Assembly (NCBI GenBank): GCA_024276495.1
Contig: JAJRXC010000030.1
Span: 1-38,571, forward strand
Source of the DNA: Actinomycetes bacterium
GTDB taxonomy: Bacteria; Actinomycetota; Acidimicrobiia; Acidimicrobiales; Aldehydirespiratoraceae
DNA: 38,571 bases
Direction: 5' to 3'
Positions within the stretch are counted from its first letter, which is position 1. Every line of letters begins with the position of its first letter. Below are positions 1,150-32,974 of this stretch, piece by piece. Position numbers and translations under genes: made by a program. The notes beneath the pieces were generated by a model. That model was not told where the DNA came from. It saw only the letters and a list, made by a program, of their open reading frames with translations, and did no database searches.

Positions 1150-2265
1150 TCAGACCCGCCACTCCAGCACCCGGAAACCACCCATCCCGGCGGGATCGAG
1201 CAACGCCTCGGCCTCCCGGATCCGGCTCCGGGCGGTCAAGGCCGCGAGATCACCGATCCCGGCCGTCGCCGCCCAACGCCGCCGCCCCTCCTCGACGAGA
1301 CCGTCGATTCCGTGCGCACGCAGCCAGTCGGCCTGGGAACGATCGAGATCGGCCCGATCGTGCCGCTGCAACTGGTCGAAGGCGACATCCGCGGTGATGT
1401 CGCAACTCCCCGGCTCCCGCCGCCAATCGGCACCGCCTCGATGCCCACGATGGGTGCGCAACCATCCCGGTTGTCCGTCGTCTGTCCCCGACCGGGCCGC
1501 GAGCGTCGCGGTGGACCCGCCATAGTCGAACACGACCACCCGACCCCTGCCGATCGCGGCGCGAGCGGCGCGCAACCAGGCCCGGGCCCGGGGTTGCCAC
1601 GGAACCCGGACTCCGTGCGCCGCGGCCGGAACCAGCTCGTCGAGCTCGGCCGCCACCGCTCCCGCGAGCGGTACGGAATCCGCCTCCAGCCCGAACCGAC
1701 CCGACTCGTCCCGGTGACCGATCCGCAGGAGGCGCCATTCGTCGTCGAGACGAGCCGCGATGTCGAACGGCAGATTGTCGAGCAGCTCGTTGGCCAGCAC
1801 GACCCCGACGAACGTCGATGCTCCCGCGGTCGCCGCCGCGGCGACCGCCTCGGTGCCGGTCGCCCACGAGGACACGGCCGGATGATCCGGGTGGGACCGG
1901 CGTTGCCCCGACGACGACTCGACCAGATGCCACCGCAGCGCGCCCGCGACCAGCACGGCAGGGTCCGCGGCGACCACGGCCCGAACGAGCGTGCCGGGAC
2001 CGGCCCCCCACTCGACCACGGAGAACGGGTCGGGCCGGCCCATGTCGACCCACCACTCGTCGAGCGCCCCGGCGAGCACCGTCCCGAACAGCGGACCGAC
2101 CTCCGGCGCGGTCAGGAAGTCGCCTCGTCGCCCCGCCCTCCCGAGCGCCGCGTAGAAGCCGTGCGTCGGGTCGTAGAGGGCGACCTCGACATAGTCCGCC
2201 ACGAGAAGTGGCCCGGATGTGAGGATGCGGCGGTCCAACCGCTCGGCCAGCGACTCGTCCACCAT
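1150..2265 (-). CDS. MidA/NDUFAF7-family SAM-dependent methyltransferase (putative complex I assembly factor)
   Basis: A 371-aa class I methyltransferase of the COG1565/DUF185 (MidA) family. Landmarks are the N-terminal GFYAALG and GDFLTAPEVGPLFG block (residues about 36-61), the SAM-binding loop VVEWGAGPGTL (83-93), the family signature LANELLDNLPFD (158-169), and the C-terminal GSCDITADVAFDQL element. The length is normal for the family. The human member NDUFAF7 symmetrically dimethylates an Arg of NDUFS2, the NuoD homologue, and is needed for complex I assembly. Here the gene lies 37 bp downstream of nuoN of cluster 1, at the end of that operon, which fits a role in maturing this complex. 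The NuoD of cluster 1 keeps the target Arg (Arg69). That the enzyme acts on NuoD is inference; the family call is secure. Confidence 0.88.
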   Translation of the reverse strand: MVDESLAERLDRRILTSGPLLVADYVEVALYDPTHGFYAALGRAGRRGDFLTAPEVGPLFGTVLAGALDEWWVDMGRPDPFSVVEWGAGPGTLVRAVVAADPAVLVAGALRWHLVESSSGQRRSHPDHPAVSSWATGTEAVAAAATAGASTFVGVVLANELLDNLPFDIAARLDDEWRLLRIGHRDESGRFGLEADSVPLAGAVAAELDELVPAAAHGVRVPWQPRARAWLRAARAAIGRGRVVVFDYGGSTATLAARSGTDDGQPGWLRTHRGHRGGADWRREPGSCDITADVAFDQLQRHDRADLDRSQADWLRAHGIDGLVEEGRRRWAATAGIGDLAALTARSRIREAEALLDPAGMGGFRVLEWRV

Positions 2266-2302: not shown

Positions 2303-3796
2303 TCAGCCGCCGGCGAGCAGGCTCACATCGGTGAAGTCACCGACGACGAATCCGAGCCCGAACACGATCGTGACGATCGCGGTGATGCCGATCGCGGCGA
2401 CGAGCGACACCGGCACGTCGACCCGGCGCAGATCGCCGTCGGGTACCTCCTCGGCCCACATGCCGATACCGACCCGTGCGTAGTAGTAGAGCGCGATGAC
2501 CGAGTTGACGGCGACCACGACGCCGAGCACCACGCCGCTGGCGTTGTTGGCATCGATGAGCGCCTCGATCACCCGGAACTTCGCGAACCAGCCACCCAAC
2601 GGCGGGATGCCGGCGAGCGAGAACAAAAAGATGGTCATGGCGACGGTGAGCCCGGGCGCGTACTGGAACAGGCCGCGATAGTCGGCGATCTCGGCGGAGC
2701 GAGTCTTGCGGGCGACCGCCATCACCACCGCGAAGGCGCCGAGGTTCATCGCCGCGTAGATCACCAGATACGTGACGACCGCACCGAGGGCGGTGTCGGG
2801 AACCTCGCCGATGACGGCGAGCGGCGCCAGCATGTAGCCGGCCTGGGCGACACCGGAGTAGGCCAACATGCGCACGATGTTGGTCTGGCGCAGCGCCATC
2901 ACGTTGCCCGCGGTCATCGATGCTGCCGCCAGGACCCACATCAGGGGTTCGACCACGTCGTCGCGACCGAGCAGACCGACGAACACGATGTTCATGAGCG
3001 CCACGAAACCGGCGGCCTTCGACGCGACGGACAAGAAGGCGGTGACCGGCGTCGGCGCACCCTCGTAGGTGTCGGGTGCCCAGGTGTGGAACGGGAACGC
3101 GGAGACCTTGAACGCGAAACCGACGATCACGAGCACCACACCGAGCACGACCACCGCGGTCGGGTCGGCGCCCCGGCTGACCGCCGCGTTGATGTCGGAC
3201 AGAAGCGTCGAGCCGGTGCTGCCGTAGAGCAACGACATCCCGTAGAGCATCACCGCCGACGCGAACACGCCCATCAGGTAGTACTTCAAGCCGGCCTCGT
3301 TGCTGCGCAGGTCGCGTTTGCGCCACGTGGCCAGCAGATAGGCGGGGATCGACAAGAGCTCGAGCGCCACGAAGATCGAGATCAGGTCACGAGACGACGC
3401 CATCAACACCATGCCGAGGATGGAGCTCAACAACAGGCCGTAGTACTCGTTCTCCCAATAGTCGCCTTCGGCGATGTAGTTGGTCGACAAGAGCACCACC
3501 ACATAGCCGGCGAGCACGAACATCGCCTTCATGATGAGCGAGTAGTTGTCGACGACGAACGCGCCCCCGAACATCGAGCGATCGTTGCCGTCGACCGCCA
3601 ACGTGATGATCGGGATCATGGTGGCCAACAACGCGAGCGACGCGAGTGGCGCAGCGAACTTGCGGCCCTTCTCCAGCCAGCCGATGTCCATCATCGTCAA
3701 CAGCGCACCGAAACCGAGCAGGGTCAGCTCGGGCGCGGCGGCGTGCCAGTCGATCGGCGGCCGCACGAAGTCGGCGGAGGCGAGCAATGCGAGCAT
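2303..3796 (-). CDS. nuoN: NADH-quinone oxidoreductase subunit N (cluster 1)
   Basis: A 497-aa polytopic antiporter-like subunit of the membrane arm, thought to move one proton per cycle. Essential-type residues are present: Glu146 in ALELLSIPAYLLA (TM5 Glu), the TM7 Lys in FKVSAFPFHTWAPDTYEGAP, and a Lys in the following VASKAAGF helix. About 14 hydrophobic segments are visible and the length is typical. The gene begins 2 bp after the nuoM stop and is the last nuo gene of the 11-gene cluster, followed by the midA-like gene. Nothing suggests inactivation. It is distinguished from nuoL and nuoM by the PFHTWAPDTYEGAPTP motif. Confidence 0.96.
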   Translation of the reverse strand: MLALLASADFVRPPIDWHAAAPELTLLGFGALLTMMDIGWLEKGRKFAAPLASLALLATMIPIITLAVDGNDRSMFGGAFVVDNYSLIMKAMFVLAGYVVVLLSTNYIAEGDYWENEYYGLLLSSILGMVLMASSRDLISIFVALELLSIPAYLLATWRKRDLRSNEAGLKYYLMGVFASAVMLYGMSLLYGSTGSTLLSDINAAVSRGADPTAVVVLGVVLVIVGFAFKVSAFPFHTWAPDTYEGAPTPVTAFLSVASKAAGFVALMNIVFVGLLGRDDVVEPLMWVLAAASMTAGNVMALRQTNIVRMLAYSGVAQAGYMLAPLAVIGEVPDTALGAVVTYLVIYAAMNLGAFAVVMAVARKTRSAEIADYRGLFQYAPGLTVAMTIFLFSLAGIPPLGGWFAKFRVIEALIDANNASGVVLGVVVAVNSVIALYYYARVGIGMWAEEVPDGDLRRVDVPVSLVAAIGITAIVTIVFGLGFVVGDFTDVSLLAGG

Positions 3797-3798
3797 GC

Positions 3799-5391
3799 TC
3801 AGCCCCCGGCCACCACGGAAGCACCGACCTCACATGTGGTCTTCAGACACTCGTTGAGCGACTGCACCACCGCCGGATCGGTCACCTCGAAGATCAGGCC
3901 CGGTGCGACGCCGAACACGACGATCAGGATCAGGAACGGGGTCCACGCCACCCATTCGAAGGTCGACACGTCGGTGATGTTGGGGTCGTCGGCGAACTCC
4001 GCCGACGGCTCCCCCATCGCCGTGCGTTGCAGCAGCCACAACAGGTAGCCGGCCGCGAGCACGGTGCCGATCGCGGCGACGACCATGTAGCCGCGGAAGA
4101 GCTCCTCCGAGATCGCCCCGGCCGGGTTGTAGGCCGAGAGGATCGCCGGGAACTCGCCCCAGAAACCCGCGAGGCCGGGCAGACCCAGCGAGGCCATCGT
4201 GACGAAGCCGAGGATCCATCCGAGCCGGGGCGCTTGCACCAGCATGCCGCCCAGCCGTTTGATCTCGAGGGTGTGGTAGCGCTCCTTCACCGACCCGGCG
4301 ATGAAGAACAGCATGCCGGTGATGAGACCGTGGGCGACCATGCCGTAGATGGCCGCGTTGATTCCGAAGTCGGTGAGAGTCGCAATGCCGAGCATCACGA
4401 AACCCATGTGGGCGATCGACGAGAACGCGATCAGGCGTTTCATGTCGGTCTGGGCGAGACATCCGAGCGCGCCGTAGATGATGCCGATCACGGCGACCGC
4501 GCCGATGACCGGGGCCCAGGCCTCGGCCGCCTCGGGCAGGAACGGGATCGCGATGCGGATGAAGCCGTAGGTGCCGAGCTTCAGCAGCACGGCGGCCAAG
4601 ATGACGGAGCCCTGGGTGGGCGCCTGGGTGTGGGCATCGGGCAGCCAGGTGTGGAACGGGAAGATCGGGACCTTCACGCCGAACCCGATGAACATGCCGC
4701 CGAAGATGACGAGTTGGGTCGAACGGACGATGCCTTCGCCGGCGGAGTCGGCCAGCGCCGGCATGTTGAAGGTGCGCAGGAGCTCGCCGGTGGCGGGGTC
4801 CTTGGCGAGGAAGAACAACGCCAGGAACGACAGGAGCATCAGCGCCGAGCCGAACAGCGTGTAGAGGAAGAACTTCAGGGAGGCGTAGCGGCGATCCTCG
4901 CCACCCCACACCGCGATCATGAAGAACATCGGGAGCAGCACGACCTCGAAGAACACGAAGAACAAGATGAGGTCCTGGGCGACGAAGGTGCCGATCATCC
5001 CCGTCTCGAGGATCAACATCAACATCATGAACGCCTTGGTGTTGCCCGGCGACGGGATGTGATCCCACGAGTAGACGAAGACCAGCGGCATCACCAGCAC
5101 CGTCAGCCCGATCAGCGGCAACGACATCCCATCGATGCCCATCGTGTAACCGGCACCGATGACCTCGATCCAGTCGGTGTCGACGAGATACTGGAGCGCC
5201 CCGGACTGGTCGTAGTCGAAGTCGATGAACAAGAAGACGGCGAGACCGAACGTGACGAGCGAGGTGAGCAGGGCCAGCGCCTTGTGCGTCTCCTCCTCCT
5301 TCTCGGGCACGAGCGCCATGAGCAGCGCACCGGCGAGCGGCGCGAAGACCAGCAGGGTCGGGAGCCAGTTGTTGGTGTCCAAGGTGTCCAT
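3799..5391 (-). CDS. nuoM: NADH-quinone oxidoreductase subunit M (cluster 1)
   Basis: A 530-aa membrane-arm proton-translocating subunit. The conserved TM5 glutamate is Glu149 (FFEVVLLPMFF), the TM7 lysine is Lys240 (VKVPIFPFHTWLPDAHTQAP), and the next channel lysine is Lys271 (LLKLGTYGF). Length and topology are typical of NuoM/ND4. The C-terminus carries two cysteines (NECLKTTCEVG) that are not part of the family core. The start ATG at 5391 lies 26 bp after the nuoL stop, and the stop is 2 bp before nuoN, so the three antiporter-like genes are in the usual L-M-N order. The channel residues indicate a working pump. Confidence 0.96.
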   Translation of the reverse strand: MDTLDTNNWLPTLLVFAPLAGALLMALVPEKEEETHKALALLTSLVTFGLAVFLFIDFDYDQSGALQYLVDTDWIEVIGAGYTMGIDGMSLPLIGLTVLVMPLVFVYSWDHIPSPGNTKAFMMLMLILETGMIGTFVAQDLILFFVFFEVVLLPMFFMIAVWGGEDRRYASLKFFLYTLFGSALMLLSFLALFFLAKDPATGELLRTFNMPALADSAGEGIVRSTQLVIFGGMFIGFGVKVPIFPFHTWLPDAHTQAPTQGSVILAAVLLKLGTYGFIRIAIPFLPEAAEAWAPVIGAVAVIGIIYGALGCLAQTDMKRLIAFSSIAHMGFVMLGIATLTDFGINAAIYGMVAHGLITGMLFFIAGSVKERYHTLEIKRLGGMLVQAPRLGWILGFVTMASLGLPGLAGFWGEFPAILSAYNPAGAISEELFRGYMVVAAIGTVLAAGYLLWLLQRTAMGEPSAEFADDPNITDVSTFEWVAWTPFLILIVVFGVAPGLIFEVTDPAVVQSLNECLKTTCEVGASVVAGG

Positions 5392-5417
5392 GTGAGAGGT
5401 GTCCTGGTTATTCGGAG

Positions 5418-7754
5418 CTAGAGAGCGAGCAAGATGATGAAGCTGCCGGCGAGCAGGGCCGCGGCGGCGAACATGATGGCGGCGTAGTTCTGGACCTTGC
5501 CGGAGTTGAGGTGGCGCAGTTCTTCACCGGTGGCGTCGGAGACCTTGCCACTGCCGTTGACGACGCCTTCGATCACCCCCTGGTCGATCGTGTCGTAGAC
5601 GAAGCGGCCGCTCTTCACCGAGGCCCGGCCGACGGCGTCGACGCCGCCGTCGATGACGTTCTGGTTGACCCAGTACGCCGCTCGGGCGAGTGGGCCCTTG
5701 GTGAACGCCACGATGACGCCGTTGTAGAGGTGATCGAGGTAGTACTTCTCGACCAGCACCTTGTGGCCGACCCGGGCGACCGGGTTGGTGGTGGTGACGC
5801 CGTTGGGCATGCCGGTGAGCGACACACCGGTCTTCTTCGCAAGCCGGTCGACCTTCACGAAGTAGTAGTAGAAGGCGTAACCCGCCCCGGCGAACGCGAT
5901 CAGGCTGGAGACGATCGCCAGCGAGTAGCTGGGAGTGCCGTGGGAGATGCCCGGGAAGTACGAGGCGCCGAGAGGTTCGATGTAGTGGCCGAAGCGCTCC
6001 TCCCAGGAGTCGGGCCACAATGCGAGTCCCTTCGGCATGTTGAGCAGACCGGCCAGGATCGCGAATCCGGACAGGATGTAGAGGGGAACGAGGATCCGCG
6101 GCCCCGACTCGTGGGGGTCGCCGTGGTGAGCTTCGGCCCCGTCGTCGGCCGCGTGGCCGCCGCGGTACTCGCCGTGGAAGGTGAGATACACACAGCGGGT
6201 CATGTAGCCGGCGGTGAGGGCGGCACCGATCATGCCCATCGTGAGGTGGAACGTGTAGGCCCCGTTGCCGCCGGTGCCCCCGAAGAAGTTCCAGCCGCCG
6301 GTGCCCACGAGGATCTCGTCCTTCGACCAGAAACCGGCCAGCGGGAACACCCCGGCCAGCGCCAATGAGCCGATGATGAACGTGATGTACGTCTTCGGCA
6401 TGAACTTGCGCAGACCGCCCATGTCCTTCTTCATGTCGAAGCTGTGCACGGAGTGGGCGACCGATCCCGACCCGAGGAACAGGTTGGCCTTGAAGAAGGC
6501 ATGGGTGAAGAGGTGGAACACGGCGGCGGTCCAGGCCCCGACACCGAGGGCCATCGCCATGTAGCCGAGCTGGGAGATCGTGGAGTAGGCGAGGACCTTC
6601 TTGATGTCGTCCTGCACGAACGCGAGCAGACCACCGAAGACGAGCGTGATCGCGCCGACGGTGGCGAGCAGGTTGATGCTCGACCCGTTGATCTGCATGC
6701 CCTCGTAGAAGACCGGGTAGAGCCGGGCGACCATGTAGATGCCGGCCACGACCATGGTCGCCGCGTGGATGAGCGCCGAGACGGGGGTGGGACCGGCCAT
6801 GGCGTCGGGAAGCCATGTGTGGAGGATGAACTGGCCCGACTTCGACATGACCGCGGCCATCAGCGCCGCCGCGGCGACGACCAACGCGGTCTTTCCGACC
6901 TCGCCGCGAACGATCGCGTTGTTGATCAGGAGCGTGTCGAAGGTCTTGCCGCCACCGGCCGCGAAGAACAGGGTGATCACGCCGACGATCAGGCCGACGT
7001 CGCCGACCCGGTTGGTGATGAACGCCTTCAACGCCGCGTCGCTGTTGGGTTTCTCCTCCCACCAATGGCCGATCAGGACGAAGGAACACACGCCCACCAG
7101 CTCCCAACCGACGATCATCTGGAGGATGTTGTCGCTGAGCACGAAGAACAGCATCGAGGCGGTGAACAACGACAAGAACGCGAAGAAGTGGGTGTAGCGC
7201 CGATCGCCGCCGACATAGTCGGTGCTGTAGACGTGGACCAGCAGCGAGATGAGGGTGACGACGAACAGCATCATCACCGCGAGGCCGTCGACCAGAATCC
7301 CGACGTTGAACTCGATGCCGCCCGACTGGAACCACTGGGTCGAGCTCTGCACGGCGACCGGCACCGGGCCTTCTTCCTCGCCACCTTTCTCGCCTTCGCC
7401 GCCGTCCTCCGCGGTGAGCACGAGCGAGTCGCTCGATGTCAGTCCGTCGTCTCCGATGACCAGTGCTTCCTCGCCGCCGGTTCCGGCCGGTTCGAAGTTG
7501 TCGCGATGATCGATCCACGCGAACCCGGTGATCACCGCGAGCACGAACGCGAGGCCGACCGCGGCGATGCCGATCTCGGCTCCCTTCTTCGGCATGCGTT
7601 TCCCGAAGAACAAGATGAGAACGAACGAGAGCGCGGGCAGCAACGGGATCAGCCACGCGTTCTCGAGGAACCAGTTGGCGTCGTTGGTGACCGACGGTGG
7701 CCCGGTCGGTGCTTCGGCGAGAAGCGGAGCCATTGATGCGAGCAGAGAGTTCAT
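5418..7754 (-). CDS. nuoL: NADH-quinone oxidoreductase subunit L (cluster 1)
   Basis: A 778-aa distal membrane-arm subunit, longer than the usual 600-670 aa. Key residues are Glu218 (GWELVGVCSF), Lys305 (MSKSGQFILHTWLPDAMAGP) and His330 (SALIHAATMV). A long C-terminal part fits the lateral helix and terminal TM typical of NuoL. Much of the extra length comes from an N-terminal leader of about 30 residues and an acidic Gly/Glu-rich insertion at about residues 81-137, between an early TM helix and the conserved GILVDGLAVMML segment. It sits 10 bp after the nuoK stop. The acidic insert looks like a flexible loop; its function is unknown. Confidence 0.96.
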   Translation of the reverse strand: MNSLLASMAPLLAEAPTGPPSVTNDANWFLENAWLIPLLPALSFVLILFFGKRMPKKGAEIGIAAVGLAFVLAVITGFAWIDHRDNFEPAGTGGEEALVIGDDGLTSSDSLVLTAEDGGEGEKGGEEEGPVPVAVQSSTQWFQSGGIEFNVGILVDGLAVMMLFVVTLISLLVHVYSTDYVGGDRRYTHFFAFLSLFTASMLFFVLSDNILQMIVGWELVGVCSFVLIGHWWEEKPNSDAALKAFITNRVGDVGLIVGVITLFFAAGGGKTFDTLLINNAIVRGEVGKTALVVAAAALMAAVMSKSGQFILHTWLPDAMAGPTPVSALIHAATMVVAGIYMVARLYPVFYEGMQINGSSINLLATVGAITLVFGGLLAFVQDDIKKVLAYSTISQLGYMAMALGVGAWTAAVFHLFTHAFFKANLFLGSGSVAHSVHSFDMKKDMGGLRKFMPKTYITFIIGSLALAGVFPLAGFWSKDEILVGTGGWNFFGGTGGNGAYTFHLTMGMIGAALTAGYMTRCVYLTFHGEYRGGHAADDGAEAHHGDPHESGPRILVPLYILSGFAILAGLLNMPKGLALWPDSWEERFGHYIEPLGASYFPGISHGTPSYSLAIVSSLIAFAGAGYAFYYYFVKVDRLAKKTGVSLTGMPNGVTTTNPVARVGHKVLVEKYYLDHLYNGVIVAFTKGPLARAAYWVNQNVIDGGVDAVGRASVKSGRFVYDTIDQGVIEGVVNGSGKVSDATGEELRHLNSGKVQNYAAIMFAAAALLAGSFIILLAL

Positions 7755-7764
7755 CCGGTGGCCC

Positions 7765-8064
7765 TCAGCCCTTCAGGAGATCGGCTTCGGAGAAGTCGAT
7801 GCTGCGGCGGTTGCGGTACATGAGCAAGACGATGGCGAGACCGATGCCGACCTCGGCCGCGGCCACGGCGATCGTGAACAGGGCGAACACCTCACCGGCG
7901 ACGTCGTCGGTGAGCGACCCGAACGCCACGAGGTTGATGTTGACGGCGTTGAGGATGATCTCGATCGACATCAACACGAGGATGCCGTTCTTGCGGACGA
8001 GCACGCCGTAGACGCCGATGCAGAACAGGGCGGCGGCCAGGAGCAGGAACTGGTTCAAGAACAT
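7765..8064 (-). CDS. nuoK: NADH-quinone oxidoreductase subunit K (cluster 1)
   Basis: A 99-aa, three-helix membrane subunit homologous to ND4L. Both buried glutamates of the family are seen, in [18 protein letters not shown] and in [16 protein letters not shown]. The ATG at 8064 is preceded by a good ribosome site (GAGGGG with an 8-base spacer). It lies 12 bp after the nuoJ stop and 10 bp before nuoL. NuoK, with NuoJ and NuoA, links the quinone chamber to the antiporter-like pumps. Length and residues are entirely ordinary. Confidence 0.95.
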
Positions 8065-8076
8065 GTGGTCGGCCCC

Positions 8077-8610
8077 TCAGTCTTTCCGGGCCACGACGAT
8101 GGCACCGATCAGGGCCGCGAGCAGCAGCACCGACACGGCTTCGAACGGGATGATGTATCGGGAGAAGATCGCGTCGGAGACTTCCTGAACCCGCTGCGGC
8201 TCGTCGATGACGATCCGGTCGTCACCCCAGGTGTCGATGAGGGCCAACGCCATGACGGAGAACAACAACACGCCGACGACGGCGGCCATCGCGTGTTTCT
8301 CCTCGCGGACGGTTTCGTCGTCGCCGAGCGACGCGCGGGTGAGCATGATGCCGAAGAGGAACAGCACGACGACTGCCCCGATGTAGACGAGCACCTGGGT
8401 GACGGCGACGAACTCGGCGCCGAGCAGGATGAACTGGGCGGCGACCCCGGCCAGGACGAGCACGAGCCACAGGGCGGCGTGCACGATGTTGATGGTCGTG
8501 ACGACCCGGTACGCCGAATAGAGCATGACGACGGCGATGAGACCGAAGAAGACGTTCTGGGCGACGTAGATGTCGGCGTCGGGTGAGATCGCGGCGAGAA
8601 GTGCGGTCAT
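8077..8610 (-). CDS. nuoJ: NADH-quinone oxidoreductase subunit J (cluster 1)
   Basis: A 177-aa membrane subunit (ND6 homologue) with about five hydrophobic segments. The conserved TM3 region is [20 protein letters not shown], the pi-bulge helix involved in coupling. The start ATG at 8610 overlaps the nuoI stop in an ATGA tetranucleotide, the usual mark of translational coupling. The longer upstream in-frame extension is Arg/Pro-rich and belongs to another frame of nuoI, so I rejected it. A charged loop follows TM4 ([20 protein letters not shown]). Confidence 0.95.
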
Positions 8611-9146
8611 GTGGGCGGCACCTTCAGCTTCTTCGCTTCCGAGCCGGCCTCGTAGTCCTCGAACTCGGGAACCGTCTCCATCCACTCCGACAGGCGCGAC
8701 TTGTCGTGGAGCAGGTCGGCGATGCGGGGCTCGGAGTACTCGTACTCCGGGGTCCAGAACAGGGCTTCGAAGGGGCAGACCTCGACACAGATTCCGCAGT
8801 ACATGCACAGGGCGTAGTCGATGTCGAAGCGGTCGAGAATGTTCTGCTGGCGAACCTTGCCGCCGGCCCGCCGCGGCGGCGCCTTCTCCTTGTGGCCCTC
8901 GATGTAGATGCACCAGTCGGGGCACTCACGGGCGCACAGCATGCACGCGGTGCAGTTCTCCTCGTGGAGCGCGATCACGCCGCGGGCCCGGGTGGGCGGC
9001 GCCTCCTTCTCGTGGGGGTACTGCACCGTTGCCGCGCCCCGTGACGGGGCCGGGATCGGCTTCTTCAGCCCGCCGGGGAACACGGTGCGCAGTATCGTGC
9101 CACCGGTGACACCGAGGCCTTTGATGAGTCCGGGTACGAGCGACAT
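8607..9146 (-). CDS. nuoI: NADH-quinone oxidoreductase subunit I, 2x[4Fe-4S] (cluster 1)
   Basis: A 179-aa peripheral-arm iron-sulfur protein carrying clusters N6a and N6b. Two ferredoxin-type motifs are complete: Cys65, 68, 71 and 75 ([12 protein letters not shown]) and Cys114, 117, 120 and 124 ([12 protein letters not shown]). It passes electrons towards NuoB. In an 11-subunit complex I without NuoEFG, NuoI is the likely surface where an external donor such as ferredoxin would dock, as in photosynthetic NDH-1; that role here is inference. A Lys/Arg-rich insert (residues about 86-101) lies between the two motifs. It begins 11 bp after nuoH and overlaps nuoJ by 4 bp. Confidence 0.96.
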
Positions 9147-9157
9147 GTTGATCCTGC

Positions 9158-10180
9158 CTAGATCCAGACCTTGAAGATCGCCGTCACGACGATGTTGGCG
9201 AGGCTGAGGGGAATGAGGAACTTCCAGGCGAGGCGCTGTAGCTGATCCTCACGGAATCGGGGGAAGGTGAAACGGACCCAGAACACGAGGAACGTGAGGA
9301 TCACGATCTTGGCGAACATCACCAGCGGCCCGAGGACGTTCATGATGTTGTCCGTCGGGTCGATCCCGGGGATGTACCAGCCGCCGAGGAAGAGCACGGC
9401 TGCGACGGCCGAGAAGACGCCGGCGGTCGCGAACTCGCCGATGAAGAACATCAAGAAGCGCATGCCGGAGTATTCGGTCATGTAGCCCGACACGAGCTCG
9501 GATTCGGCGATCGGCATGTCGAACGGCGATTGGGTCAGCTCGGCTTGCATCGCGATCAGGAAGATGAGGAACGCGACGCCCTGGGTGAGGATGTAGGGGT
9601 TGCCGATGCCGCCCCATCCGAAGATCTCTCCTTCGGCCTGGGCGAAGACGATGCCTTGCATGTTCATCGTGCCGGCCTGGATGACCACGCCGACCACGGC
9701 GAGGATCAGCGGGAGCTCGTAGGCGATGAGCTGACCGGTGGCCCGGAGGCCGCCGAGCAGGGAGTACTTGTTGGCCGAACCCCATCCGGCCATGAGGATG
9801 CCGATGACCGACACCGACGAGACCGCCATGGCGAGATAGATGCCGACGTCGTTGTTGACGAACCACGCGTCGGGCCCGCCCGGCACCACGACCACGAGCA
9901 GGAACGTGGAGGCGAGAACCACGAACGGGGCAGCCGCGAAGACGAACCGGTCCGCCTTGCGGGGGAAGATGTCTTCTTTCTGGAGATGCTTTCCGACCTC
10001 GGCGAGCAACTGGAGCGAGCCGTAGGGCCCCGCTTCCATCGGGCCGAGGCGGCTCTGCATGAACGACACCATCTTGAACAGGTGCACGTAGACGAGGGTG
10101 CCGGCGACGAGCAGGACCGCGCCGAGGCCGGCGCCGACCCGGATGGCCGTCTCTTGCCAGTAGGAGAGTTCCGCGATCAC
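9158..10180 (-). CDS. nuoH: NADH-quinone oxidoreductase subunit H (cluster 1)
   Basis: A 340-aa membrane subunit (ND1 homologue) forming the quinone chamber with NuoB and NuoD. Family landmarks are [19 protein letters not shown], the [14 protein letters not shown] loop, and the acidic loop [17 protein letters not shown]. The chosen start is GTG at 10180, which overlaps the nuoD stop as GTGA. The upstream in-frame stretch is His/Arg/Pro-rich shadow sequence of nuoD. The loop usually read as LADGxKLxxKED is [12 protein letters not shown] here, a mild divergence. About eight or nine TM segments are visible. Confidence 0.95.
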
Positions 10181-11349
10181 CGGTCGATGTCTCCGAGGAT
10201 GAAGTAGAGGCTGCCGAGGATCGTGATGATGTCGGGCACGTAGACGCCCTTCAACAACCACGGCGTGATGGACATGTTGTTGAACGACGCCGACCGGATC
10301 TTGACCCGATAGGGAACGAGATCACCCTTCGAGACGACGTAGTAGCCCATCACCCCGAGTGGGTTCTCGGTCTCCACATACGCTTCACCGGCGGGGACCT
10401 TGATGATGCGGGGGACCTTGGCCATGACCGGCCCGGCGGGGATTCCGTCGAGCAGCTGGTCGACCATGCGGGTCGCCTCGCGCACCTCCTGGAGCCGGAC
10501 CCAGAACCGGGAGAACGAGTCGCCGTCGGGGTGGGTCCAGACCCTCCAGTCGAGCTCGTCGTAGACGAGGCCGCAGGGGTTGTCGCGGCGTACGTCCCAG
10601 TCGACGCCCGAGCCGCGGATGTTGGCGCCCGACAGACCGTAGGACAAGCCGATGTCGGCGGGAATCACGCCGATCCCGCGGGTGCGGGCCTGGAAGATCT
10701 CGTTGCCCATGACGAGATTCTCGATCTCGTCGCAAAACGACCGCATCTTCTTCATCACTTGCTTCGTCTCGGTGACCCAGCCGGCCGGCAGGTCGTCCTT
10801 GAGGCCACCGATGCGGTCGAAGTTCGGGTGGAACCGGCCGCCCGTGGCGGCCTCGATCTGGTTCAGGATGTGCTCACGGTCGCGGAAGGCGAAGAAGACC
10901 GGGGTGACCGCGCCGACCTGTACCGCCATGTCGCCGAGGAACAGCACCACGTTGGCGATGCGGCTCATCTCGAACAAGAGCGTGCGGATCCACTGGGCCC
11001 GGGGCGGTGCTTCGACTTCCATCAGCTGCTCGGCGGCGAGGATGAACGGCACCTCGTTGGCGAAGCTGCCCAACCAGTCGATGCGGTTGATGAGGGTGGT
11101 CACCTGCGGATAGGTGCGGACCTCGGTGAGCTTCTCGTAGCCCCGGTGCATGTAGCCCATGACCGGGTCGGCGGCGATGACCTGCTCGCCGTCGAGCTTG
11201 GCGACGATCCGCAGGGTGCCGTGGGTGGCCGGATGCTGCGGACCGATGTTGAGGGTCATGCCCTCGGTCTCGAGCTCCAGGTTGACCCGGGCATCGGCGG
11301 CCTGGGCCGCGATGTAGCTGAGCTGTTGGCGATCCGTGATGTCGGTCAT
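10177..11349 (-). CDS. nuoD: NADH-quinone oxidoreductase subunit D (cluster 1), diverged quinone site
   Basis: A 390-aa 49-kDa-type subunit that with NuoB forms the quinone-reduction site. The N-terminal NIGPQHPATHGTLR keeps the site His (His43, equivalent to Thermus Nqo4 His38). By gap-free alignment to Nqo4 as I remember it, the quinone-ligand Tyr87 is Trp92 here (NRIDWLGSF) and Asp139, partner of the His, is Gln144 (GDMAVQVGAVTP). Arg69 (YMHRGYEKL) matches the Arg methylated by NDUFAF7 in mammalian NDUFS2. The C-terminal GDIDR end is canonical. The gene overlaps nuoC by 4 bp (ATGA). The subunit call is certain; the chemical effect of the substitutions is unknown. Confidence 0.96.
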   Translation of the reverse strand: MTDITDRQQLSYIAAQAADARVNLELETEGMTLNIGPQHPATHGTLRIVAKLDGEQVIAADPVMGYMHRGYEKLTEVRTYPQVTTLINRIDWLGSFANEVPFILAAEQLMEVEAPPRAQWIRTLLFEMSRIANVVLFLGDMAVQVGAVTPVFFAFRDREHILNQIEAATGGRFHPNFDRIGGLKDDLPAGWVTETKQVMKKMRSFCDEIENLVMGNEIFQARTRGIGVIPADIGLSYGLSGANIRGSGVDWDVRRDNPCGLVYDELDWRVWTHPDGDSFSRFWVRLQEVREATRMVDQLLDGIPAGPVMAKVPRIIKVPAGEAYVETENPLGVMGYYVVSKGDLVPYRVKIRSASFNNMSITPWLLKGVYVPDIITILGSLYFILGDIDR

Positions 11350-12119
11350 GAGGCGTCGGTGCTTTCGCCGGCATCCGCCGGATCCGCGGAAGTCGTCGAC
11401 GCGTCCTCGTTGTCACCGCCGGCATCCGCGTCGTCGGGCATGGCTTCGACGTCGACGATGCCGGGCCATGGCTTCACCCGGCGGGCCAGCAACGGGTAGT
11501 CCTTGCGCATCGGGTTGCCCTCGAACTCGCCGGGCAGGTAGATGTGGCGCAAGCCGGGATGGCCCGCGAACGTGATGCCGAACATCTCCCACGCTTCGCG
11601 TTCGTGCCAGTTCGCCCCGCGGTAGACCTCGACCCAGCTGGGAACGGTCATGTCGTCGGGGACATCGGCCTTCAGGGTGACGCCGCGATGATCGACGATG
11701 TCGTTGACCCGCGCCAGCACCTGGAATCGGGTGTCGCCACCGGCGAGACCCTGCTCCATCGGCTCGATGTCGGCATCGCCCGCGTCGGCGTCTTCGTCCT
11801 GCTCGAGGGTGAGGTCGACCTGGGAGTCCATGTCGCGCCCGAACGGCGAGGGCAGCCAGTCGATCGCGCTCAGGAAGTTGAAGTAGCCGAATCCCATGCC
11901 GGTTCGCAAGAACGCGGCCGTCTCGGCCCACGCGGCGGCCGTGACCCGGACGGTCAGATCGATGCCGGGTTCGATGTGGTGGCCGACAAGGGCATCGCCC
12001 AGCTCGCCGGTCAACTGTTCGAGCATCGCCTCGCGCACGGCGTCGGACGCGGGGGTCGCGTCGGTGTCTTCGGTCTCGGTGGAGTCTTCGCCCTGGGTGG
12101 GGGCGTCAGTCGACGACAA
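11346..12119 (-). CDS. nuoC: NADH-quinone oxidoreductase subunit C (cluster 1)
   Basis: A peripheral-arm subunit of about 257 aa (30-kDa homologue) that braces NuoD. The family block is clear: [20 protein letters not shown] followed by [14 protein letters not shown]. Acidic segments are unusual: an Asp/Glu-rich N-terminus, an insert around [15 protein letters not shown], and an acidic C-terminal tail of about 35 residues. The start is uncertain. TTG at 12119 has a well-spaced GGAAGGG eight bases upstream; GTG at 12128 is three codons longer but has no properly spaced ribosome site. Either start overlaps the end of nuoB, and the gene ends in a 4-bp overlap with nuoD. Confidence 0.92.
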
Positions 12120-12606
12120 TGGGCTCACCCTTCCAACGCTGCGCCATGTCTTCGTTCTGGATGCGCTCCTGAAGCAACACGATGCCTTCGAGGAGGGCTT
12201 CTGGGCGGGGCGGACAGCCGGGGACGTAGACGTCGACCGGGATGATCTGATCGATGCCCTTGGTGACGGAATAGGAATCCCAGTAGGGGCCGCCACAGTT
12301 GGCGCACGAACCCATCGAGATCACGTACTTCGGTTCGGGCATCTGTTCGTAGAGGCGGCGGATCGCCGGCGCCATCTTGTCGGTGACGGTGCCCGAGACG
12401 ACCACCAGGTCGGCTTGGCGGGGGCTGGCGGGCAGCGGGATCACGCCGAGGCGCATCACGTCGTAGCGGGGCGACCCGAAGGCGGCGCCCATCTCGATGG
12501 CGCAGCAGGCGAGGCCCCACTGGTAGACCCACAGCGAGTACTTGCGGCTCATGTTGAGCAGCGACGTGATGGGTTTCGGGATCTTCCCCGATTCGACGAG
12601 ACCCAT
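12106..12606 (-). CDS. nuoB: NADH-quinone oxidoreductase subunit B (cluster 1)
   Basis: A 166-aa subunit carrying cluster N2, the last iron-sulfur centre before quinone. All four ligands are present: Cys34-Cys35 (GLACCAIEM), Cys101 (MGSCANCGG) and Cys131 ([11 protein letters not shown]). The ATG at 12606 overlaps the nuoA stop by one base (TGATG). The longer upstream extension is shadow sequence of nuoA. The variant [12 protein letters not shown] differs from the [11 protein letters not shown] of the cluster 2 NuoB, showing that the two complexes are distinct lineages rather than a recent duplication. Confidence 0.96.
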
Positions 12607-12971
12607 CAGACCCACCGCAGCATTCCCTTGCGCCAGGCGTAGAGAAGGCCCAGCAACAAGATGTAGATGAAGATCGCCATTTCGATGAGACCGAACATCC
12701 CGTAGGCCTCGAGTCGTGCGGCCCACGGGAAGATGAACACCGCTTCGACGTCGAACATCACGAATAAAAGCGCGAACACGTAGTAACGGATGTTGGCCTG
12801 TGACCACATGTCGCCGGTCGGGTCAACGCCCGATTCGTAGGTCTCGAGCTTCTGCTCGGTGGGGTTCGAGGGTCGCAGAATTCGGCCGAGGCCGAGGAAC
12901 GCGGCCACCAGCGCGACGCCTACGAGACCAAAGATCCCGACAGTGAGATAACTACGAAGAAAATCCGACAC
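12606..12971 (-). CDS. nuoA: NADH-quinone oxidoreductase subunit A (cluster 1)
   Basis: A 121-aa, three-helix membrane subunit (ND3 homologue) and the first gene of cluster 1. The conserved second-helix region reads [18 protein letters not shown], with the Asp/Glu pair of the family. The start codon is GTG (12971). No convincing Shine-Dalgarno is seen; a TAGGGT hexamer 8 bases upstream suggests a leaderless transcript. The stop overlaps nuoB by one base. The length is normal, unlike the extended NuoA of cluster 2. Confidence 0.94.
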
Positions 12972-14303: not shown

Positions 14304-14317
14304 GGACCCACCCTATA

Positions 14318-14331: not shown

Positions 14332-14336
14332 CCCCC

Positions 14337-14879: not shown

Positions 14880-14885
14880 CCAGCC

Positions 14886-19873: not shown

Positions 19874-21610
19874 TCAGCCGACCAGGGCCAAGACGGCGTC
19901 GCCGGCCAATTGATCGATCGGTCCGGGCACGACACCGAAACCGATGGTCAACACGAGAGCGACCCCCACGGCCAACGCGGCCGTCGGGTGAACTACGATC
20001 GGCTCCCGGTCGTCGTCGGCGGCGGTGCCCAGGTACACCGACAACACGATGCGGAGATAGAGGAACGCAGAGACCACGGCGGAGACCATCGCGACGACGG
20101 CCAGCCAGAACGAACGGGCGTCGACCGCCGCGCCGATGACCTCGAACTTGGCGACGAACCCGCTGGTGAGCGGCACGCCGGCCTGGCCGAGCAGGAACAA
20201 GGTGAGGGTGAACGCGAGCACCGGGTTGCGCGCCGCCAGGCCGTCGAGATCGTCGAGGCCGGTTCCCCGATCGCCCCGACCCGACACGATCGACAAGACG
20301 CCGAACGACCCGACGACCATGAAGGTGTAGCCCGCGATGTAGAAGACCACGGCGGCGACTCCACGATCGGTCGCGGCCTGAACTCCCACGAGGATGAACC
20401 CTGCGTGGGAGATGGACGAGTAGGCGAGCATGCGTTTCGCATCACGCTGGACGATCGCCATCACCGCACCGACGACCAGGGTGAGCACCGCGAGGGCGTA
20501 GATGGCCGGTTGCCAGTCGTCTCGATAGTCGAGGAAGGCCAGATAGAAGACACGGACGAGGGCGGCGAAGCCGGCGGCCTTGACCGCCGATGCCATGAAG
20601 GCAACGACGGGGGTGGGGGCACCCTGATAGACGTCGGGCGTCCACGAATGGAACGGCACCGCGGCCACCTTGAACCCGAACCCGACGAGCAGGAGCGCGA
20701 ACCCGGCGAGAAGCATCGCGTTGTCGAGGATGATGACACGATCGAGATAGGCGCGGATCTCGAGCAGATTCAGAGAGCCGGTCGCCCCGTAGATCAGGGC
20801 CATGCCGTAGAGCAGGAAGGCCGATGAGAACGCGCCGAGCATGAAGTACTTGAGGCCCGACTCGAGCGACTCGGACCGGCGGCTGTGCATCGCGGCCATC
20901 ACGTAGACCGCTATCGACAACGTCTCGAGACCGAGGAACAACACGATGAGGTCGTTGGCCCCGGCCATCACGACACCACCGGCCGCCGACAGCATCATCA
21001 AGACGTAGATCTCGGGTCCGTCGATGCCCTCGCGGCGAAGATAGTTGTCGAGCAGGAGTGCGGTGAGCACGACCGCCAGGGCGATGACGCCGGTGAAGAC
21101 CAGCGCGAAACCGTCGATGCCGTACTGGTTGCCGATGGCGGCGACCGGTCCACCCGAGCTGGTGATGCCGGCGAGCACCTCGTCGGCGGTCAAGGCCGTC
21201 GACCGGAACGAGTCGTTCCACAACTCGACGGTGGCGACGAACGCGACCAGCCCGACTCCGACGGTCACGGCGGCGTCGAAACCGATCCGCATCGAGCGGA
21301 CGAACGCGGCCGCCACGACGAGCAAGGCGATCAGGCCGACGTAGAAGAGCGGTTCGCCGATGTCGTCACGAACCCCGGACAGCGGCACGTCGTCGCCCAC
21401 GAACCCGCCCACGAACCACATGGCGAGCACGGTGACGGGGCCGATTGCCGCGGTCGCCGATGCCTCGACATCGGCGGGAAGCCGCTTGACGATCGAGCGG
21501 AACATGATCAACACGACCGCACCGATCGCGAGGGCGAGGATCGGGGCCAGAGCCGACCAGACGACCTCGGGGGTGTCGACGGGCGGATCGGCGAGTTGGA
21601 ACACCATCAT
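19874..21610 (-). CDS. nuoN: NADH-quinone oxidoreductase subunit N (cluster 2)
   Basis: A 578-aa antiporter-like membrane subunit. The conserved core has Glu229 (GLETLSIAVYVMA), the TM7 Lys in FKVAAVPFHSWTPDVYQGAP, and a further Lys in SAVKAAGF. It is about 80 residues longer than the cluster 1 NuoN, all at the N-terminus: the shared segment after the first helices (GIDGFALVF) begins near residue 164 rather than 83. That extension contains two extra hydrophobic stretches (about 17-37 and 56-75). The start overlaps the nuoM stop as ATGA. The proton-channel residues are intact. Confidence 0.95.
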   Translation of the reverse strand: MMVFQLADPPVDTPEVVWSALAPILALAIGAVVLIMFRSIVKRLPADVEASATAAIGPVTVLAMWFVGGFVGDDVPLSGVRDDIGEPLFYVGLIALLVVAAAFVRSMRIGFDAAVTVGVGLVAFVATVELWNDSFRSTALTADEVLAGITSSGGPVAAIGNQYGIDGFALVFTGVIALAVVLTALLLDNYLRREGIDGPEIYVLMMLSAAGGVVMAGANDLIVLFLGLETLSIAVYVMAAMHSRRSESLESGLKYFMLGAFSSAFLLYGMALIYGATGSLNLLEIRAYLDRVIILDNAMLLAGFALLLVGFGFKVAAVPFHSWTPDVYQGAPTPVVAFMASAVKAAGFAALVRVFYLAFLDYRDDWQPAIYALAVLTLVVGAVMAIVQRDAKRMLAYSSISHAGFILVGVQAATDRGVAAVVFYIAGYTFMVVGSFGVLSIVSGRGDRGTGLDDLDGLAARNPVLAFTLTLFLLGQAGVPLTSGFVAKFEVIGAAVDARSFWLAVVAMVSAVVSAFLYLRIVLSVYLGTAADDDREPIVVHPTAALAVGVALVLTIGFGVVPGPIDQLAGDAVLALVG

Positions 21611-23211
21611 TCGCCCCCCTCCGCATCGGCTTCTTCGCCACCGGGCGCCTCATCGACCGCAGGGGCGAGATATCCGGCAGTTGGTTCCTCGAAGTCGGGG
21701 ACGTTGTCCTCGACGTGTTGGATCAGGGCGTCGACGGCCGGTTCCATCCGGTCGAGGACCGGTTTGGGGTAGACGCCGAGGAAGACGATGGCGACGATGA
21801 ACGGCACGATGATCAGACCCTCGCGCAACGTGAGGTCGGGCATCGTCGCGTTGTCGCCTTCGGCCGGTCCGTGGAACACGCGTTGATAGGCCCACAGCAG
21901 GTAGAGGGCCGCGATGATGACGCCGGTGGCGGCGACGACGGCCCACCAGCGGTGGGCGGCGAACGCGCCGAGCAGGGTCAGGAACTCACCGACGAAACCG
22001 TTGAGGCCCGGAAGGCCGATCGACGAGAGCATGACCACCATGAACGCGGCGGCGAAGATCGGGGCGGGCTTCTGCAATCCACCGAGCTCGCTGATCTGGC
22101 GGGTGTGACGCCGCTCGTAGATCCAGCCGACCAGCAGGAACAGGGCGCCGGTCGAGAGCCCGTGGTTGACCATCTGCAACAGGCCGCCCTCGATGCCTTC
22201 GGTGTTCAGGGCGAAGGTACCGATGATGATGAAACCGAGGTGGGCCACCGACGAGTAGGCCACGAGACGTTTTAGGTCGCGCTGCATCGTCGCCGCGATC
22301 GCGCCGTAGATGATGCCGATCACGCCGAGTGTGACCAGCGCCGGCGCGAAGTAGACCGCCGCCTCGGGGAAGAGGTAGATCCCGAAACGCAGGAACCCGT
22401 AGGTGCCCAGCTTCAACATGACCGCGGCCAGGATCACCGAGCCGGCAGTGGGGGCGTTGGTGTGGGCGTCGGGCAGCCAGGTGTGGAAGGGGAACAACGG
22501 CACCTTCACCGCGAACGCGATCGCGAACGACAAGAAGATCCACCGGGCCGTGGTGGTGGCGATGGCCTGCGACTCGGCCAACTCGACCAGGTCGAACGTC
22601 AACACGCCGGTCTCGGCCTGATTCAGGAACGCCAGCGAGAGAATGCCGACGAGCATGAACGCCGAGCCGAACATGGTGTAGATGAAGAACTTGGTGGCGG
22701 CGTAGGCCCGTTCGCCGTGACCCCACTTGCCGATCAGGAAGTACATCGGCACGAGCACGATCTCGAAGAACACGAAGAAGGCGAAGAGGTCGAGAGCGAG
22801 GAACACCCCCATGCATCCGGCCTCGAGAACGAGCAGCCACGCGTAGTAGGACTTCGGTTCGTGGTCGGCGTCGACCGCGACGATCGCCACCGGGAAGATG
22901 AAGCCGGTGAGGATGACCAGCCAGAGCGAGATCCCGTCGATTCCCAGGTGCCACGAGATGCCGAGACCCTCGATCCAGGTCTGACGGTTCTCGAGTTGGA
23001 ACTCGGCGGCGCGGGCGACTTCGAAATCGGTCAGGACCCAGATCGCGAGCGCGCCCGTTGCGGCCGACACGAGAAACGCGACCTGTTTGAAGTGTTCGGG
23101 GCGGCTGTTGGGAAGGATCAGCAGCACCATCGCGCCGAGCATCGGCAGCACGATCAGCGCGGTGAGGACGGGGAAGGACGTAGCGGTCTCGGCAGCGAGT
23201 AGTGATGTCAT
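21607..23211 (-). CDS. nuoM: NADH-quinone oxidoreductase subunit M (cluster 2)
   Basis: A 534-aa proton-translocating subunit. Glu150 (FFEIVLVPMYF), Lys236 (VKVPLFPFHTWLPDAHTNAP) and Lys267 (MLKLGTYGFLRFG) are the channel residues. The C-terminal 40 residues form an acidic tail ending in a Glu/Gly-rich stretch. The ATG at 23211 immediately abuts the nuoL stop, and the gene overlaps nuoN by 4 bp. It shares architecture with the cluster 1 NuoM but differs throughout, consistent with an old divergence. Confidence 0.96.
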   Translation of the reverse strand: MTSLLAAETATSFPVLTALIVLPMLGAMVLLILPNSRPEHFKQVAFLVSAATGALAIWVLTDFEVARAAEFQLENRQTWIEGLGISWHLGIDGISLWLVILTGFIFPVAIVAVDADHEPKSYYAWLLVLEAGCMGVFLALDLFAFFVFFEIVLVPMYFLIGKWGHGERAYAATKFFIYTMFGSAFMLVGILSLAFLNQAETGVLTFDLVELAESQAIATTTARWIFLSFAIAFAVKVPLFPFHTWLPDAHTNAPTAGSVILAAVMLKLGTYGFLRFGIYLFPEAAVYFAPALVTLGVIGIIYGAIAATMQRDLKRLVAYSSVAHLGFIIIGTFALNTEGIEGGLLQMVNHGLSTGALFLLVGWIYERRHTRQISELGGLQKPAPIFAAAFMVVMLSSIGLPGLNGFVGEFLTLLGAFAAHRWWAVVAATGVIIAALYLLWAYQRVFHGPAEGDNATMPDLTLREGLIIVPFIVAIVFLGVYPKPVLDRMEPAVDALIQHVEDNVPDFEEPTAGYLAPAVDEAPGGEEADAEGGE

Positions 23212-25533
23212 CTAGAAGCTCGCCCTCGACAGGAACCAGGCGAGCAGGGCGACCGCCCCGACCGCGACCATGGCGGCGTAGGAACGAACCAACCCCGACT
23301 GCAACCGGCGGAGTTGGCCTCCACCGCTGCGCACCACACGACCGACTCCGTTGACGGCGCCGTCGACGAAGGTCGCGTCGAACCACGCCACGAAGTCGAA
23401 GCCCTTGCGGCCCGGACCGCCCATGAAGTTCGTGATCGCCTCGTCGTAGCGCCAGCCACGGGCAAGGATCGGGAGCTCCACCTTCGACGCGGGGAACCGG
23501 TTGCCGAGATAGATCGCGGCGGCCACGAGGATGCCGAACAGGCCGCCCGCGACCGCGATCGCGGCGAGCACCCATTTCAGTCCGGCGCTCGCCGTGAGAT
23601 GAGCCGGGTCGACGAGGGTCGGCTCGAGCCACCGGCCGAGGAACTCGACGTCGCTCGCGAACGGCAGGTTGAGCACGCCACCGATCGCCGCGGCGACAGC
23701 GAGGAGCACCAGCGGCACCGTCATCTGCCACGGTGACTCGTGGGGGTGGTACTCGCGGCGGGCGCGGGCCGGTTCGGGGAGGTCGGCTTCGTCGAGATCG
23801 CCCATGTCGGGCGCGTCGAACAACGAGAACTCGGTGCGCAACCCACCGGAGGTCGCCGCGGCCGCGACTCGGGCGACCTCGGCTTCGGCCGCGGCGACGG
23901 CACCCCGGGCGGCCTCGACCGTCGCAGTGGTCTCCTCGAGCGCGGCTTCGGCCTTGGACACACCCTCACGGGCCTTGTCGAGGTTCTTCGCGGCCTTGTC
24001 GGTGGCTTTCTCGTCGTCGGGGTCGACCTCGGCGGCTTCACGCTCGCGGGTGGCGAGCTTCTCGCGGGCCTTCTCGAGCTTCTCCGCCGCCTTCGTGACC
24101 GCCGACTCGGCTTCGCCGATGCCGGCTTCGGCCTCGGTGAGGGCGGACTCGGCGTTGGCGACCCGGGTCGACCACACGTCGGCGATCTCCTCGGGCCGCA
24201 CGTCGGCGAACCGGTAGCGCCCGTAGAAGGTCATGAAGACCTGGCGGCTCATGTAGAACGCGGTGAGGATCGCGGTGACGAAGCCGACTGCCCACAGGCC
24301 GTAGCTCTCCTGCCAGGCGAAGGCCAAGATCTCGTCCTTCGACCAGAATCCGGCGAAGGGCGGAACACCGGCGATGGCCAGCCATCCGACGATGAAGGTG
24401 GCCGAGGTGATCGGCAGGAACTTGCGCAGCCCGCCGTAGTGGCGCATGTCCTGGTCGTCATCCATTCCGTGGATGACCGATCCCGAGCCGAGGAACAACA
24501 GGGCCTTGAAGAAGGCGTGGGTGATCATGTGGAAGATCGCGGCCACGTAGGCGCCGGATCCGATCGCGAGGAACATGTAGCCGAGTTGGCTCACCGTCGA
24601 GTAGGCGAGAACCTTCTTCACGTCGTTCTGGGCGATCGCGATCGTTGCGGCCACGAGCGCGGTGATCGCACCGATCCAGGCGATGGTGGCGGGGGCCCAG
24701 GCGGCCGAAGCGTCGATCACTCCGTTCATGCGGGTGAGCAGGTAGACGCCGGAGGTGACCATCGTGGCGGCATGGATCAACGCGGAGACCGGAGTGGGAC
24801 CCGCCATCGCGTCGGGCAACCAGACGAACAGGGGGATCTGCGCCGACTTTCCGACCGCGCCGACCAGCAGGAGGATCGTGATCGCGGTGGCGGTGGACTC
24901 GGCCAGGTTGGCGTCGGCCGCGAAGATGTCGACATAGCGGATCGAACCGATGGTGGTGAAGGTGAGGAACATGGCGACCATGAATCCCCAGTCGCCGATG
25001 CGGTTGGTGATGAACGCCTTCTTACCCGCGCTGGCGTTGGCCTCGTCGGTGAACCAGAACGAGATCAGGAAGTAGGAACAGGCCCCGACCCCCTCCCAGC
25101 CCAGGAACGTGAGCAGCAGGTTGTCGCCGAGCACCAGCATCAGCATGGAGAAGGCGAACAGGTTCATGTAGAGGAAGAACTTCGAGAACTTCTCGTCGCC
25201 GTGCATGTAGCCGATCGAGTACAAGTGGATCAGCGCGCCGACACCGGTGATGAAGAGCGTCATCGTCACCGACAACGGATCGACCAAAAAGCCGACATCG
25301 ACAGAGAAGTCGCCGGCCGGGATCCACTCGAAGAGGGTCTGTCCGAACTGGCGTTGCTCCTCTTCCTCACCGACGAGACCGAAGAAGACCACGACTGCCG
25401 ACGCGAACGAACCGCCCATCGCCAGGGTCGCGAGCCAGCCGGCTCCGGGCTCACCAAGCCGGCGACCGAACAAGAGGATGAGGAGGAACCCGGCCAGGGG
25501 GAACGCGGGGATCAGCCAGACTGCTTCGACCAT
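23212..25533 (-). CDS. nuoL: NADH-quinone oxidoreductase subunit L with coiled-coil insertion (cluster 2)
   Basis: A 773-aa distal proton-pumping subunit. Glu147 (GWEGVGACSYF), Lys229 (GKSAQIPLFVWLPDAMAGP) and His254 (SALIHAATMV) mark the channel. An insertion of about 105-150 residues (about residues 447-597, bases about 23745-24195) separates MTFYGRYRFAD from YHPHESPWQMTVPL, where the family normally has a short loop. It is Ala/Glu/Lys-rich with heptad-like repeats (for example AAEKLEKAREKLATREREAA) and should fold as long helices, probably a coiled-coil hairpin. It is in frame and has the codon use of the rest of the gene. Its role is unknown. Confidence 0.95.
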   Translation of the reverse strand: MVEAVWLIPAFPLAGFLLILLFGRRLGEPGAGWLATLAMGGSFASAVVVFFGLVGEEEEQRQFGQTLFEWIPAGDFSVDVGFLVDPLSVTMTLFITGVGALIHLYSIGYMHGDEKFSKFFLYMNLFAFSMLMLVLGDNLLLTFLGWEGVGACSYFLISFWFTDEANASAGKKAFITNRIGDWGFMVAMFLTFTTIGSIRYVDIFAADANLAESTATAITILLLVGAVGKSAQIPLFVWLPDAMAGPTPVSALIHAATMVTSGVYLLTRMNGVIDASAAWAPATIAWIGAITALVAATIAIAQNDVKKVLAYSTVSQLGYMFLAIGSGAYVAAIFHMITHAFFKALLFLGSGSVIHGMDDDQDMRHYGGLRKFLPITSATFIVGWLAIAGVPPFAGFWSKDEILAFAWQESYGLWAVGFVTAILTAFYMSRQVFMTFYGRYRFADVRPEEIADVWSTRVANAESALTEAEAGIGEAESAVTKAAEKLEKAREKLATREREAAEVDPDDEKATDKAAKNLDKAREGVSKAEAALEETTATVEAARGAVAAAEAEVARVAAAATSGGLRTEFSLFDAPDMGDLDEADLPEPARARREYHPHESPWQMTVPLVLLAVAAAIGGVLNLPFASDVEFLGRWLEPTLVDPAHLTASAGLKWVLAAIAVAGGLFGILVAAAIYLGNRFPASKVELPILARGWRYDEAITNFMGGPGRKGFDFVAWFDATFVDGAVNGVGRVVRSGGGQLRRLQSGLVRSYAAMVAVGAVALLAWFLSRASF

Positions 25534-25537
25534 CGCC

Positions 25538-32952: not shown

Positions 32953-32974
32953 CGTGTCCCTCCGGCCCTGTCGA

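Follow-up and report, generated by a model that had tools for sequence, protein, structure and literature searches.

A midA-type methyltransferase gene beside one of two complex I operons, and a nuoD1-midA pair found outside the operon in related genomes

The window, by which we mean the whole stretch of 38,571 nucleotides that was analysed, carries two gene clusters for complex I, and at the downstream end of the first of them lies midA, a gene of the NDUFAF7/MidA methyltransferase family. It is very probable, in our judgement, that MidA, with SAM as methyl donor, places two methyl groups (symmetrically, by analogy) on Arg69 of NuoD1 alone while the 11-subunit complex I is being assembled. 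We infer the catalysis, its site, the symmetry of its product and the role of the mark in assembly from the family and predicted fold of the protein, its linkage to the operon, its co-occurrence with an Arg-type NuoD, the reciprocal residues of NuoD and NuoB, and the presence of nuoD1 near midA in genomes where it lies away from the operon. The features on which the argument turns are these:

1150..2265, (-) strand: midA, encoding an NDUFAF7/COG1565-type SAM-dependent methyltransferase (PF02636; 371 aa, ATG start)
2303..12971, (-) strand: cluster 1, nuoA to nuoN, 11 subunits (A-D and H-N; nuoEFG absent) by Pfam and NCBIfam scans
10177..11349, (-) strand: nuoD1, encoding the presumed substrate (PF00346, E 3.5e-78; NCBIfam PRK12322)
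11143..11145, (-) strand: Arg69 codon (motif GYMHRGYEK), presumed site of methylation
12106..12606, (-) strand: nuoB1 (start inferred), with Thr73 (codon 12388-12390) at the switch column (SGT)
19874..35896, (-) strand: cluster 2, nuoA to nuoN, 14 subunits (nuoEFG present)
32975..34243, (-) strand: nuoD2, with Thr77 (codon 34013-34015) in GYLHTGMEK; the target residue is absent
34794..35390, (-) strand: nuoB2 (start inferred), with Arg89 (codon 35124-35126) at the switch column (AGR)

An earlier note on this DNA had described a MidA/NDUFAF7-type methyltransferase gene 37 bp downstream of nuoN in cluster 1, and the open reading frame, the PF02636 match and the gap (nuoN1 ends at 2303, stop included) all agree with that description. 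The same note gave Arg69 and Thr77 for the NuoD proteins of clusters 1 and 2, and both can be read in the motifs listed above. Downstream of midA, and on the same strand, is a gene for a TetR-family regulator (142-876). The roughly 6.8 kb between the two clusters (13044-19870) hold DUF222, rhodanese, Rv3169-family, APH-type kinase and VanY plus S-layer-homology genes; in another genome (G016) the two nuo clusters are less than 140 bp apart.

Several measures place MidA in its family. Its PF02636 match (E 1.9e-30; 106.6 bits in the Pfam scan, where the cut-off is 23.3) is the sole PF02636/COG1565 match in the assembly (4.33 Mb, 111 contigs); the protein has no match in NCBIfam. An AF2 model made from an alignment of 24 relatives (mean pLDDT 90.3) superposes on Dictyostelium MidA (5ztz) with Z 35.1 and an rmsd of 2.6 over 335 residues, so the whole-protein fold, on this predicted model, is that of NDUFAF7/MidA. 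The other solved matches are two Burkholderia COG1565 structures (Z 34.3 for 4g67, and 33.7) and Rhodopseudomonas 1zkd (32.8); after these COG1565-type structures, the next-ranked match falls to Z 13.6. At E 0.001, a search of solved structures with the sequence profile returned only those three proteins, and identity to 5ztz is just 21%.

The residues of the SAM site and of the family are present as well: GAGPG (87-91), N159-E160, D163, D247-Y248 and D289. Eleven columns are invariant across the 24 rows of the alignment, including E160, D163, D247, Y248 and D289, and with the profile aligned to 5ztz, G89, N159-E160, D163, D247-Y248, D289 and Q311 are invariant or nearly so in those rows. The same cell also encodes a NuoD with the target Arg, NuoD1 Arg69. 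Among 14 control genomes, PF02636 was found in three (Caulobacter, Synechococcus and Haloferax), and E. coli, one of the controls, had no match to it.

Why would MidA serve the 11-subunit complex alone? We suggest that it does so because NuoD2 has Thr at the target column and takes its N2-side Arg from NuoB. Hameedi et al. describe, in the available part of their report, a Thermus NuoD with Thr whose space is filled by an Arg of NuoB (PMC8042128). The window holds both states of this switch, NuoD1 Arg with NuoB1 Thr73 and NuoD2 Thr with NuoB2 Arg89. For 62 fetched loci that yielded both subunits together with a legible NuoD motif, NuoD and NuoB pair as Arg-Thr in 54, Thr-Arg in three, Arg-Trp in three and Arg-Pro in one (G276), with one not read; no Arg-Arg or Thr-Thr pair occurs among the 62. 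The Arg-Trp pairs all come from family f38 (L161, L163, L159), where a divergent NuoD reads GNLHRG(V/I)EK and the switch column of NuoB holds Trp (AGW). In the NuoB set, all 22 Thr-NuoD loci have Arg in NuoB, three of them sharing genomes with the three Thr-Arg pairs of the 62-locus count. The arrangement is thus like the intersubunit switch between Thermus and Yarrowia as excerpted from PMC8042128, with Thr in either NuoD or NuoB and Arg in its partner; unlike there, the two states here lie within one genome, and they have been counted over tens of loci.

A second site in NuoB may be recorded alongside. The motif around the hydroxylated Arg of the mammalian subunit, VVFRASPRQ in the accessible part of PMC3750175, is kept in NuoB2 (VFRASPRQ), and in NuoB1 the Arg is replaced ([10 protein letters not shown]). 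Of 22 Arg-type NuoB proteins, 20 carry this Arg (the exceptions are G085 and G062), whereas none of eight Thr-type ones does.

On the proposed course of events, SAM would bind MidA at GAGPG, and the Arg69 loop (HRGxEK) of newly made NuoD1 would be dimethylated ahead of NuoB docking. In the assembled complex 1 the methylated Arg would then lie beside iron-sulfur cluster N2; complex 2 would draw its N2-side Arg from NuoB and require no methylation. Where a genome has the Arg and lacks MidA, the enzyme presumably works with the residue unmethylated, as that of E. coli does.

The chemistry itself has precedent. Human NDUFS2 is methylated on Arg85 by NDUFAF7 (PMC3829151, in part), and the available portion of PMC3750175 reports that Arg65 of the 49-kDa/Nqo4 subunit of Paracoccus denitrificans is symmetrically dimethylated and gives the homologous Arg249 of E. 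coli as unmodified. A review names alpha-proteobacterial homologues of NDUFAF7 as the bacterial side of the reaction, in the section consulted (PMC9006661). Dimethyl-Arg at this site is therefore already known in a bacterium, going by the accessible account of Paracoccus, and the window is not the first bacterial case. The homologous Arg of a bacterial complex I is common to that proteobacterium and to our DNA; there the mark was seen, and here it is predicted. With the human and Dictyostelium NDUFAF7/MidA systems the window shares the fold (predicted), the SAM site, the invariant residues and a target Arg within HRGxEK of the partner NuoD. It differs from them in that midA adjoins the operon of its presumed substrate and that a second complex I, lacking the target, is encoded in the same cell.

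What is new is this one-of-two-complexes setting together with the wandering nuoD1-midA pair described below; in the open-access literature searched, no title or abstract had midA-nuoD linkage as its subject. The pairing of MidA with Arg-NuoD extends across a phylum other than the proteobacteria, and it comes with an internal control, in that one cell has two complexes and the target in one. The two-complex setting makes the effect of the mark on cluster N2 testable separately from that of the Arg itself. In addition, the switch between NuoD and NuoB and the pairing of nuoD1 with midA should help annotators to decide which complex I enzymes could be methylated.

The linkage was surveyed at three depths. 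Upstream of midA in 80 named-species loci, nuoN1 lies within 600 nt in 70 and within 12 kb in five more; of the remainder, four have no upstream room and one has no nuo gene. GYMHRGYEK was found in all 45 loci with a readable NuoD1 motif. These loci are the best 80 of 559 relatives, so this sample leans towards the window's own kind.

For the class as a whole we used 375 genomes, the nearest relatives being mostly Acidimicrobiia. MidA is present in 289 and the NuoD1 motif in 287: both occur in 264, MidA alone in 25, Arg-NuoD1 alone in 23 and neither in 63 (Fisher p 1.4e-31, a test that ignores kinship among genomes). Ten of the MidA-only genomes are at least 90% complete, and all ten have a Thr-type NuoD. 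In three of them nuoD1 is apparently cut by a contig end (G321, G441, G449), three have further PF00346 matches with no readable motif (G530, G572, G431), and in four the sole NuoD is Thr-type, two with a weak MidA (G525, G554) and two with a strong one (G493, G503). Seven of the 23 motif-only genomes are at least 90% complete; four of these were searched with the A1 profile, which recovered a MidA fragment in G461 and no MidA in G145, G508 or G378, all with Arg-NuoD1.

The phylum set comprised 296 evenly sampled genomes, with MidA scored by PF02636 and the Arg motif defined as G[Y/F]xHRxxE[K/R], the narrower HRGxEK missing HRAAEK and HRAFDK and giving chance matches. MidA is present in 89 genomes and the Arg motif in 174 (78 with MidA, 96 without). 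An Arg-NuoD could be placed in 80 of the 89 MidA genomes, many being read in fetched NuoD loci and the rest by motif alone; it lies within 12 kb of midA in 45 of the 80 and within 27 kb in 48. The remaining pairs are mostly on different contigs (f14, 12/12; f38, 3/3; f29, 2/2; and others). The survey that the earlier note had proposed, run here within one phylum, thus finds MidA with Arg-NuoD, and near it in 45 of 80. One MidA genome (G224) has an Arg match that was not placed, and in eight no Arg-NuoD was found: G178, G242, G253, G264 and G277 are 64-83% complete, and G092, G208 and G279 are 93-96% complete. In G279 an intact-looking MidA gene stands beside a Thr-type nuoB1, and nuoD1 was not found. 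We count these three near-complete genomes against our reading, along with G493 and G503, whose strong MidA is accompanied by a Thr-type NuoD only. Also counted against it are the other MidA-only class genomes of high completeness, the three Arg-NuoD1 genomes in which the A1 profile recovered no MidA, the families with midA and Arg-NuoD on separate contigs, the NuoB Trp and Pro beside an Arg-NuoD, and the low identity to 5ztz.

It is important to remember that the relation runs in one direction. The Arg as a predictor of MidA was rejected, given that 96 of 207 MidA-less genomes match the motif, and with the unmodified Arg of E. coli this bears out the caution of the earlier note that Arg alone is not diagnostic. 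Some of the MidA-less matches may be hydrogenase-type proteins (HRGLEK, f32, f45).

In some genomes the operon has come apart. In 15 genomes from eight families (f19, f20, f31, f40, f43, f54, f57, f60), the nuo1 cluster lacks nuoD1, and an Arg-type nuoD1 is located elsewhere, less than 7 kb from midA. Of 16 genomes whose nuo1 stretch was retrieved, 15 have no nuoD1 there; in the other, G181, the contig breaks off at nuoC. In all 16, nuoD1 is near midA. With gene ends taken from simple ORF calls, the two genes stand tail to tail with overlapping stop codons in G192 and G138, overlap in G182, abut in G095, and are 30-31 bp apart in G170 and G181 and 173 bp apart in G023. They are 1.6-6.7 kb apart in G007, G049, G106 and G171, and 2-3 kb apart in G062 and G085, where midA was recognised by its PF02636 match only. 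In G204 midA and a lone nuoD1 share a strand, and in G021 midA diverges from a nuoC1-nuoD1 pair. Most of the 15 nuo1 clusters are otherwise in order (in G062 just A, B, C and I are seen, and that of G204 is interrupted by two gaps of 5 kb), and nuoB1 lies about 318 kb from nuoD1 in G049 and 199 kb in G023. The f31/g45 genomes measure 7-10 Mb. By contrast, all 20 MidA-less loci that were fetched hold nuoB and nuoD within a stretch of 4.1-5.5 kb. That midA is found near the displaced nuoD1, and not near other subunits, points to NuoD among the subunits as its partner.

Such a partnership could also consist in binding, with MidA acting as an assembly factor for NuoD1 and methylation absent or irrelevant. 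Linkage and co-occurrence would then look identical, and some MidA genomes do read HRAAEK or HRAFDK, without Gly after the Arg. Yet the Arg is retained in those very variants, the SAM-site and family residues are conserved, and the wild type rescued a Dictyostelium knock-out that a methyltransferase-deficient mutant failed to rescue, according to the consulted section of a review (PMC9006661); we consider binding alone improbable. We give still less credence to a substrate elsewhere (a different subunit of complex 1, some other protein, or DNA, which has been proposed for Wolbachia), with MidA riding along in the operon. Wolbachia MidA expressed in E. coli was reported to methylate DNA, a result that its authors call "preliminary" in the part of PMC12455994 seen, and a few genomes retain MidA with no Arg-NuoD found. 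Against this, it is the displaced nuoD1 that has midA nearby while the rest of nuo1 does not, and MidA is also absent from 63 of the 88 class genomes that lack the NuoD1 motif.

Least credible of all, to our minds, is that linkage and co-occurrence reflect mere shared ancestry, that is, one operon inherited within one class. The 375 genomes are indeed related, and Fisher's test takes no account of it; the layouts, however, are several (after nuoN1, tail to tail, same strand in G204, divergent in G021), f19 falls in a different part of the NuoD tree from f20, f54, f57 and f31, and the presence of MidA requires at least nine changes on that tree. Methylation of NuoD1 by MidA, which remains our preferred reading, matches the maturation step for one of two complexes that the earlier note suggested, and the survey linkage, the co-occurrence and the displaced pairs in 15 genomes support it.

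The second residue after the Arg also varies with MidA. In MidA genomes it is Tyr in 35, Ala in 11 (plus 17 as HRAAEK), His in five, Val in four, Met in two and Phe in one; four of the 17 cases counted as HRAAEK read HRGAEK in fetched loci, and HRAFDK adds G052 and G064. In MidA-less genomes it is Phe in 39, Leu in 15, Ile in seven, Val and Met in two each, and Tyr, Gln and Pro in one each. This tally covers part of the phylum Arg matches, 24 f24 rows (Gln or Lys; 23 of them MidA-less) being left out. On a NuoD tree built with the motif masked, 4-5 of seven independent pairs show this trend and none shows the opposite (p 0.06-0.25, for residue classes picked after the data had been seen). Family f23, with Phe and MidA, is contrary, and E. 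coli, which has Ala at this position in an unmethylated protein, would run contrary too. We offer as a tentative and rather doubtful suggestion that nuoD1 and midA evolve as one unit and move out of the operon together, and that once MidA has been lost, NuoD1 adapts by changing the residue two positions after the Arg. If this were true, that residue would be a sequence mark separating methylated from unmethylated complex I.

Among the rows left out, the one with MidA reads HRSKEK (G141), and the other NuoD of that genome reads HRGYEK on the midA contig. At L145 (G141:C498) and L283 an Acidimicrobiia-like contig of 15,771 bases carries nuo1 with midA in the genome of another family; this contig is likely mis-binned.
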